Source: a bacterium (GTDB lineage: Bacteria > UBA6262 > WVXT01). Taken from it: a stretch of DNA of 39,659 nt. Location of the stretch: NCBI GenBank assembly GCA_011773355.1, contig WVXT01000057.1, forward strand, positions 1-39,659, in the 5' to 3' direction. Within the stretch, counting starts at the first letter, position 1, and every line of letters starts with the position of its first letter. Position numbers and translations under genes: made by a program. This document shows, one piece after another, positions 31,096 to 32,831 of this stretch. A model generated the notes under the pieces. The model was given only the letters and a program-made list of their open reading frames with translations. It was not told where the DNA came from and ran no database searches.

Positions 31096-31551
31096 TCAGC
31101 GAATCCTCCTGAACGGCCTTTTTGCCCTGGGAGGACCAAGAATCTCCGCAAGGAGTATTCCCTGTCCTAGGGTCTCTAAATCGTCTAACTCGATTTTCAG
31201 TTCTTCCTCTTCAGGGCTCGTTGGTAAAACTGGACGTTCCATAAATTCTATTCTGGGTACTTCCTTCCCTTCAATAGGCTCAAATAATTGTGGCTCCTCC
31301 ACTGGAGGCAGAACAATAGGAGGCTGTTCACTAACAGGAATGGTTTCTTCTTCACGCTTCCAGAGTTCAAAAACACTCCTTACCTCTTCTTCCGCAAATA
31401 CCTCCTCTTTCTTCTCTTCAGGTTCTCCATAAGCTGCCTTTCCCTTTTGCAGACGTTCCCTCTCCCTGCGAGACCTTTTCCTTAATAAACTACCTGATAT
31501 CAGCCATATCAGCGCTAAAACTACCCAGAAAATTACCTCTATCCCTTCCAT
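31096..31551 (-). CDS. Small membrane-anchored hypothetical protein, proline/glutamate-rich
   Basis: A 151-residue protein I do not recognise. One N-terminal helix (about residues 3-20, IEVIFWVVLALIWLISGSL) is followed by an arginine/lysine-rich stop (RKRSRRERERLQKG). The rest is acidic and rich in glutamate and proline, with no cysteine and little predicted fold, ending in a basic RAKRPFRRIR tail. The ATG at 31551 has GGGAG five bases upstream; the GTG at 31557 overlaps that site. It lies after floA and before the terminator, so it may belong to the FloA/NfeD membrane-domain module. It is probably a cytoplasmic, disordered membrane-tethered protein. Confidence 0.65.
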   Translation of the reverse strand: MEGIEVIFWVVLALIWLISGSLLRKRSRRERERLQKGKAAYGEPEEKKEEVFAEEEVRSVFELWKREEETIPVSEQPPIVLPPVEEPQLFEPIEGKEVPRIEFMERPVLPTSPEEEELKIELDDLETLGQGILLAEILGPPRAKRPFRRIR

Positions 31552-31557
31552 ACCCAC

Positions 31558-31838
31558 TCCCTGCGAGACAAATGCAGCTTCCTGCTTCGATTACTCGCTT
31601 ACTACCATTTAAAAGATATTTCGTGAAGAGCTTTTGGAATTTCAGGCAAAAAACGAGGGCCACCTATGCCCCTAATGCGAGGGAATTTGGTCTAGCGAGC
31701 ATTAGAATTTTTAGCCAAAAATCGAAGATTAGGGTTTATCCGAAACTGACCGAAGGGAATTTCGGTAAACTCCTGAGATTTTTGGCGGTGCTCAAAGAGC
31801 AAAAAATTGTCAGCGAGCAAACCAAATCCCGAGCATAC
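31558..31838. other. Structured 281-nt spacer between floA and the small membrane gene
   Basis: No credible reading frame. It holds several inverted repeats: a 10-bp perfect pair GCCAAAAATC (31714-31723) / GATTTTTGGC (31777-31786) enclosing a 6-bp hairpin ACCGAA/TTCGGT (31749-31766), and a separate 7-bp pair CTAATGC (31672-31678) / GCATTAG (31699-31705). GGAATTT-type words recur across it. It may be a structured RNA or a decayed repeat element. I see no terminator T-run. Confidence 0.45.
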
Positions 31839-32831
31839 TCACTTCTTTTCTTTCTTTTCCGGTCTTCCTGCCAGAGACTCCCTCATTTTTGTATCTGCTT
31901 GAATGTTCTTGAGATTGTAGTAATCCATAAGTCCCAGACGACCCTCTTTGAAAGCATAAGCGATTGCTTTAGGAACTTCAACTTCAGCTTCCACAACCTT
32001 TGCTCTCATCTCCTCGACAAGAGCTCTCATCTCCTGCTCCCGAGCCACGGCCATTGCTCTTCTCTCTTCAGCCTTGGCTTTAGCTATCTGCAGGTCAGCC
32101 TCTGCCCGTCTCTGTTGTAATTCTGCTCCGATATTCTTACCTACATCCACATCGGCAATATCTATGGAGAGAATTTCATAGGCTGTACCCGCATCCAGTC
32201 CTTTTTCTAATACTTTCTGAGATATCAAATCTGGATTTTCCAGAACTCTCTTATGGGTCTCTGCAGAACCGATGGTGGTAACAATGCCCTCACCAACTCG
32301 AGCAATAACCGTATCCTCCCCTGCCCCTCCCACTAATCTCTCCAGGTTTGTTCTCACTGTTACCCTCGCTTTGGCCAAGAGTTGAACGCCGTCCATGGCT
32401 ACAGCGTCAACTGTCGATTTACCTTTTGAGGGATCGGGAGCATCGATTACCTTGGGAATTACACTCATATGGACTGCCTCTAAAATATCTCTTCCGGCAA
32501 GGTCGATTGCTGCACCACGCTTGAAGTTCAAGGGTATATTCGCCTTATCAGCAGCAATCAGTGATTGAACTACTCTCATTACATTTCCTCTTGCCAGGTG
32601 ATGGGCTTCCAGTTCACTGGTCTCTATTTTCAGACCCGCTTTAACCACCATAATCTTTGCATTGACTATCAGGGCTGGAGGAATGCCCCTCAGCTTCATT
32701 CCTAAAAGATTAAAGATAGAAATGTGGGCGCCTGCTGCCACAGCCTTGATCCAGATGTTCAGAAAGTAGAGAAAAATTATGGCAAAGATAATTCCAACTA
32801 TTATCACCAAGCCAATTAAAAACTGTACCAT
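31839..32831 (-). CDS. floA: Flotillin-like protein FloA
   Basis: A 330-residue membrane scaffold protein of the YqfA/FloA family. An N-terminal hydrophobic hairpin (1-50) is followed by the SPFH-like core ([34 protein letters not shown]) and a glutamate/alanine-rich coiled-coil ([34 protein letters not shown]). Length is the usual 330 residues. FloA proteins organise membrane microdomains and are commonly encoded beside NfeD, as here. It follows the short nfeD gene by 49 bases. Confidence 0.95.

Follow-up and report, generated by a model that had tools for sequence, protein, structure and literature searches.

The spacer behind floA in the window, by which we mean the whole 39,659-nt stretch of contig WVXT01000057.1 that was analysed, is probably one partly degraded member of a family of short palindromic repeats, non-autonomous and specific to its genus, that would have spread as DNA behind stop codons. 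The sequence-only reading had proposed a structured RNA in the floA operon. The fold that it noticed is real and recurs in other copies of the element, but the notion of an RNA kept by the floA operon did not hold, given that the spacer has matches at 35 places in its own genome and that the floA spacer of one congener carries no copy. What replaces this false lead, a floA riboregulator, is a repeat family that has no Rfam match and fills many operon gaps in the genus. In what follows G000 is the window's own genome (1.33 Mb, 84% complete), G001 to G003 are congeners and G004 is an outgroup.

Anatomy of the floA spacer and of the repeat units

The identity of FloA was confirmed by a Pfam match (7.9e-151) and by NCBIfam. 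In the congeners the next ORF begins with an ATG (MEGIEV..), the equivalent of which in the window is at 31551, and the window ORF probably starts there as well, rather than at the GTG at 31557. Because the downstream start was placed at this conserved ATG, the spacer is 287 nt long (31552-31838) and not 281 nt as first described; that it is non-coding stands. The neighbouring genes in the window are indeed tightly packed, but long gaps are common elsewhere in the genome: over 298 kb of G000, 74 of the 241 gaps between co-directional genes measure at least 100 nt. The features, in the order of transcription, are these:

31839-32831, minus strand: floA, the gene upstream of the spacer (Pfam and NCBIfam), whose stop codon abuts the repeat element.
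31669-31838, minus strand: A core, a palindromic module that begins GTATGCTCGGG directly behind the floA stop and ends ..CGCATTAGGGG, aligned with 20 further copies from G000, G001 and G002.
31790-31800, no strand assigned: side hairpin GCTCTTTGAGC (sense), from the A alignment.
31777-31786, no strand assigned: left arm, in sense order, of the 10-bp perfect pair GCCAAAAATC/GATTTTTGGC, paired in nearly all aligned A copies.
31731-31774, no strand assigned: apical hairpin, version (i) GAAATTCCCTTCGGTCAGTTTC; two further apex versions occur in other copies.
31714-31723, no strand assigned: right arm of the same 10-bp pair, from a repeat search and the A alignment.
31607-31668, minus strand: right arm of a B element (..TTTTTTGCCTGAAATTCCAAAAGCTCTTCACGAAATATCTTTTAAAT), the left partner arm being missing here; 31609-31624 is the arm with 2 mismatches.
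31552-31606, minus strand: non-repeat leader that reaches the next start codon, by comparison with the congeners.
31096-31551, minus strand: downstream ORF of 151 aa from the congener-conserved ATG, with no Pfam match.

The inverted repeats reported earlier were all recovered: the 10-bp perfect pair (31714-31723 with 31777-31786), the hairpin nested within it (31731-31745 with 31760-31774, 73% complementary) and 7-bp repeats at 31670-31676/31728-31734 and at 31672-31678/31699-31705. An additional outer pair, matched at 9 of 10 positions, joins 31682-31691 and 31821-31830. Folded as RNA, the plus strand of the spacer, which is antisense to the operon, gave -81.3 kcal/mol (z -2.91, matched by none of 200 shuffles), and the transcribed strand gave -79.6 (z -1.86, matched by 8 of 200), which puts the sense strand just mildly above chance. 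No gathering-level Rfam match was found in the window, and nothing meaningful in the spacer at E up to 1.

Read in the direction of the genes, the family consists of three recurring units. The A unit, a palindromic core about 160 nt long, runs from TATGCTCGGGATTTGG to CCAAATCCCNTCGCATTAGGGG; its apex hairpin comes in three versions, and the unit is also found alone (for example at L011, L017 and L020). The B unit forms one long hairpin with imperfect pairing, about 180-200 nt in length and running from ATTAAAAGATAGTTTGTTCATCGC to CTCTTCACAAACTATCTTTTAAT; it is short, non-coding and present in many copies, and has terminal inverted repeats (ATTTAAAAGATAGTTTGT / ACAAACTATCTTTTAAAT), features by which MITEs are recognised. 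Between the arms of the C unit (GGATGAAGGGATAGTT / AACTATCCCTTCATCC) lie A, B or palindromes of other kinds. Chimeric copies are common, among them A between B arms, C with A or B after it, and A with the right B arm alone, which is the arrangement of the window copy. Its surviving right B arm is unpaired and differs from the common arm; by the alignments this copy is an A core that has lost its left B arm. Mean column identity among copies is 78% in B and 69% in A.

In G002 and G003 a further insert, D, of about 150 nt (..GGTGACAG..GTGAACGCCAGAGGGGTGAAACCCCTATGGAAGTATTCCCGAAGGGAATATCT), sits within A or B copies (L058:1340-1500, L044:1320-1500, L125, L126 and L132); it had no Rfam match in L058, L044 or L049. 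By eye, D looks like the end hairpins of an IS605-type element. Another arm-linked palindrome, TGGAGTCCTCCCGAAAGGGAGG..CCTTGCTTTCGCAAGGACTCCA, was seen at L142, L146, L149, L151 and L152, and the same sites in G000 hold A, B or remnants.

Copies in the genus and their insertion sites

A search for other copies in the genome, which the sequence-only reading had itself suggested as a check, proved decisive: comparison of the spacer with G000 gave 46 rows, of which 35, the window's own among them, have E values up to 3.2e-4. All three congeners also carry the element, with 14, 17 and 15 matches, and it is absent from both genomes searched of the neighbouring family in the same order; among 54 further genomes three gave scraps of 25-30 nt and nothing more. 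The 16-nt arm, with up to 2 mismatches, occurs 50, 30, 61 and 39 times in G000 to G003, and a reversed-pattern control 5, 1, 3 and 4 times. Separated by end, the arm counts are 26+24, 14+16, 30+31 and 20+19, against controls of 4+1, 1+0, 2+1 and 4+0. The B arm was also found in record DAOVHK01. A search of named genomes with the arm returned five stretches, whose sources are two MAGs labelled 'Clostridia bacterium' and a contig of Gammaproteobacteria (L110); this contig has no A or B repeat and was rejected as a carrier, its match being taken as chance. The arm pattern had no match among viral contigs. Across these searches the family appears to be new and confined to the genus, and ordinary in kind.

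Orthologous gaps were compared. The rplR-rpsE gap is 33 nt in G001 and G003, 207 nt in G000, where it holds B, and 314 nt in G002, where it holds A within B arms. The rplE-rpsN gap is 24 nt in G001, 258 and 279 nt in G000 and G002, both with A; in G003 it measures 110 nt and consists of other hairpins. At tuf-rpsJ and rplW-rplB the occupant is A in G000 and B in G002, and in the outgroup all four gaps are 12-23 nt. A third clean pair, at the start of a gene that by eye is ftsA-like, is filled in G001 and empty in G000. Since orthologous sites are filled in one genome and empty in another, the copies are inserted DNA, a further trait shared with MITEs. A candidate target-site duplication of 3-5 nt (TTTA or TTA) can be read at two of the three pairs and is ambiguous at the third, and so is not established.

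The content of the floA spacer also differs among relatives, which counts against an RNA kept by the operon. In G002 the left junction behind the stop codon is identical, and the copy has a different apex and a D insert. In G003 (L083) there is no A, and the spacer holds an unrelated palindrome, TGTCATTGCGAG..CGCAATGACA, also given as TGTCATTGCGAG..CGCAATGACAG, which we take to be a widespread repeat type. The window copy is 96% identical to a paralogue in G002:C21 and 94% to one in G000:C52, but only 83% to the copy at the G002 floA site, and it therefore seems that interiors have been exchanged among copies or that sites have been re-invaded.

Orientation of the copies and gene strand bias

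Of 76 places, many of them orthologous sites and hence not independent, 75 have the element pointing the same way as the gene upstream of it (43/44 in G000 and 32/32 in the congeners). These are the final counts, made after reading frames had been taken into account; as first called they were 41/44 and 30/32, and the frames reassigned the upstream genes at L007 (pth), at C82:16351 (behind moaB) and at two places in L133. The congener set omits L107, a duplicate of L132:4210, and L111, which has no upstream gene. Orientation also agrees with the local GC skew, at 42/44 places in G000 and 33/33 in the congeners; several element bounds in the orientation and GC-skew sets were placed by hand. The sole reversed copy, G000:C24:8443-8640 (L072), lies between genes that Pfam assigns to an IMS-family (dinB-like) polymerase and a phosphoribosyltransferase (pyrR-like). 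By eye, a promoter-like TTGACT..TATATT adjoins it.

The same data reveal an extreme gene strand bias in this lineage. In hand-chosen stretches (the window and L158-L171 of G000; L180-L193 of G002 and G003), each scored against its own majority strand and with no mapped origin, ORFs of at least 150 aa, called with no composition score, lie on the majority strand in 235 of 242 cases in G000 (298 kb), 130 of 133 in G002 (160 kb) and 77 of 81 in G003 (100 kb), and codon-scored genes do so in 257 of 260 cases in G000. GC skew in these stretches is 0.12-0.23. For some Bacillota, PMC11237797 gives a whole-chromosome gene strand bias of up to 85%. Because about 97% of the genes are on one strand, the directions of transcription and of replication are confounded. 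In one stretch, C47, two genes oppose the GC skew and the element between them is oriented with the genes, a discordance that may reflect a recent inversion. Were lagging-strand copies to be found, the strict orientation could serve to test fork-linked insertion against filtering by transcription. A preference for co-directional gaps was dropped as remarkable in itself, the gene layout offering almost nothing else.

Covariation, rival explanations and known systems

The arms of B are paired in 96.0% of cells over 41 pairs in 22 copies, and they co-vary: 14 pairs and 43 cells have changed on both sides, against 6.4 and 11.9 in shuffles, none of 500 being as good, and slid partners gave 1-4 pairs. 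In A (21 copies) double changes occur in 2 of 34 pairs. On the sense strand G-U cells do not exceed A-C cells in either unit (11 vs 22 in B, 11 vs 14 in A; pooled 22 vs 36, p 0.087), a balance that is non-significant and points the wrong way for selection on a sense RNA. RNA selection is therefore unsupported despite the covariation of B, and the check by covariation that had been suggested for the candidate RNA showed almost none in A. Correction at the DNA level between the arms of quasi-palindromes, by template switching, is established, and by analogy it would explain the B-arm covariation with no need for RNA selection.

It was nevertheless reasonable to consider that the element has been co-opted as RNA, a hairpin in the operon mRNA that stabilises, processes (through RNase III or E) or separates neighbouring messages, with selection keeping the sense orientation behind stop codons. 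Both the almost invariable co-direction with the upstream gene and the well-paired, co-varying B arms would suit such a role, as would the C47 stretch, where orientation tracks transcription and not GC skew, though the possible inversion there weakens the point. We consider this explanation unlikely, given that the sense fold is less distinctive than the antisense fold, that the G-U and A-C counts lean in the wrong direction, that one arm is missing in the window copy and in several others, and that in congeners the corresponding sites are either vacant or taken up by unrelated palindromes. A cis-regulatory RNA or riboswitch particular to the floA operon, suggested by the position in the operon and the fold, has next to no probability left: copies stand behind dozens of unrelated genes, the window has no gathering-level Rfam match, and an RNA specific to floA is ruled out by the copy number together with the absence of a copy from the G003 floA spacer. 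A bidirectional terminator or attenuator is also very improbable. Some copies do show a hairpin followed by a T-rich stretch, but the signal in a crude scan is inconsistent (in B, 5 sense and 10 antisense of 22; in A, 10 sense and 8 antisense of 21), there is no clear reason why reversed copies should have been purged, and copies lie inside ribosomal operons whose downstream genes need transcription. Integron attC sites are palindromes that stand behind genes in uniform orientation, with ends RYYYAAC/GTTRRRY; these were rejected, the ends of the present element being unlike those and ribosomal operons not being cassettes.

Movement as REP/BIME elements by a RAYT (REP-associated tyrosine transposase) was also considered, and transposition of the HUH type would account for the orientation. 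Matches to Y1_Tnp, the HUH family, number 8 in G002 and 11 in G003. Six such proteins were tested: the IS200/IS605 model suited three, and for the other three RAYT was the best model, one of these falling below the cut-off. GTAG-led, REP-like hairpins stand in tandem beside RAYT genes at L178:1198-1340 (G003) and L179:1332-1974 (G002), and these flanking hairpins, too, favour the idea. However, repeats of types A to D are all absent from the 8 Y1 loci examined, out of 19 found, Y1_Tnp gave no match in either G000 or G001, and A and B lack the GTAG tetranucleotide at the hairpin foot by which REPs are defined; movement by a RAYT is accordingly quite improbable. DDE_3 and DDE_Tnp_1 gave no match in any of the four genomes, of which G000 is 84% complete, and the 20 arm loci that were inspected had palindromes of other kinds or ends that had diverged, with no transposase between matching ends. 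A TnpB-like ORF was seen by eye in L148, not flanked by arms.

The non-autonomous repeat that we favour is not free of difficulty: no transposase with matching ends emerged among the three families searched, covariation would also be expected of a selected hairpin, and so strict an orientation is unusual for a plain MITE. The copies are well diverged (by the column identities given above), so an old family whose transposase has been lost is plausible. A trans-acting enzyme would once have moved the units and would now be lost, or unrecognised, in G000. Pairing of the arms would be kept by arm-to-arm correction of the DNA through template switching, together with conversion between copies, and the hairpin would simply be included in the operon transcript, between floA and the gene that follows. 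For the near-fixed orientation the best explanations are insertion coupled to the replication fork or to transcription, or else loss of reversed copies, and among such explanations we tentatively place single-strand (HUH-type) insertion first. A more elaborate scheme, possible but doubtful, supposes that the palindromes nest and can insert only in line with transcription or with the replication fork. Placed immediately after stop codons in operons all over a genome where antisense genes are nearly absent, they would build 'Russian doll' hairpins (B enclosed by C, A by B arms, and D within A), and arm-to-arm and copy-to-copy conversion would maintain them without a transposase of any searched family.

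Among known systems, RUP and BOX of Streptococcus pneumoniae, as described in PMC3049150, are likewise short, non-coding, palindromic, multi-copy and intergenic, modular in the case of BOX, lack a transposase of their own and are transcribed when in operons. The pneumococcal repeats are over-represented between convergent genes (PMC3049150), whereas the present family occupies co-directional gaps in near-fixed orientation, in a genome almost without convergent gaps, and a matching IS was not found for it. REP/BIME elements and REPINs with their RAYTs (PMC3116915) are also palindromic and extragenic, with paired arms that nest into larger hairpins, and RAYTs are present in two of the congeners; the units here differ in being about 160-250 nt long and in having no GTAG foot, no adjacent RAYT and, in G000, no Y1_Tnp. 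Membership in REP/BIME thus fails on the GTAG foot and on RAYT linkage. The family behaves like an interspersed repeat of the MITE or BIME type, and may belong among the MITEs. ERIC and Correia elements are hairpin elements able to sit inside operons and alter the fate of the mRNA, in the case of ERIC in an orientation-dependent manner. By description the present family resembles them as an operon-borne hairpin element, and it belongs to a different host group.
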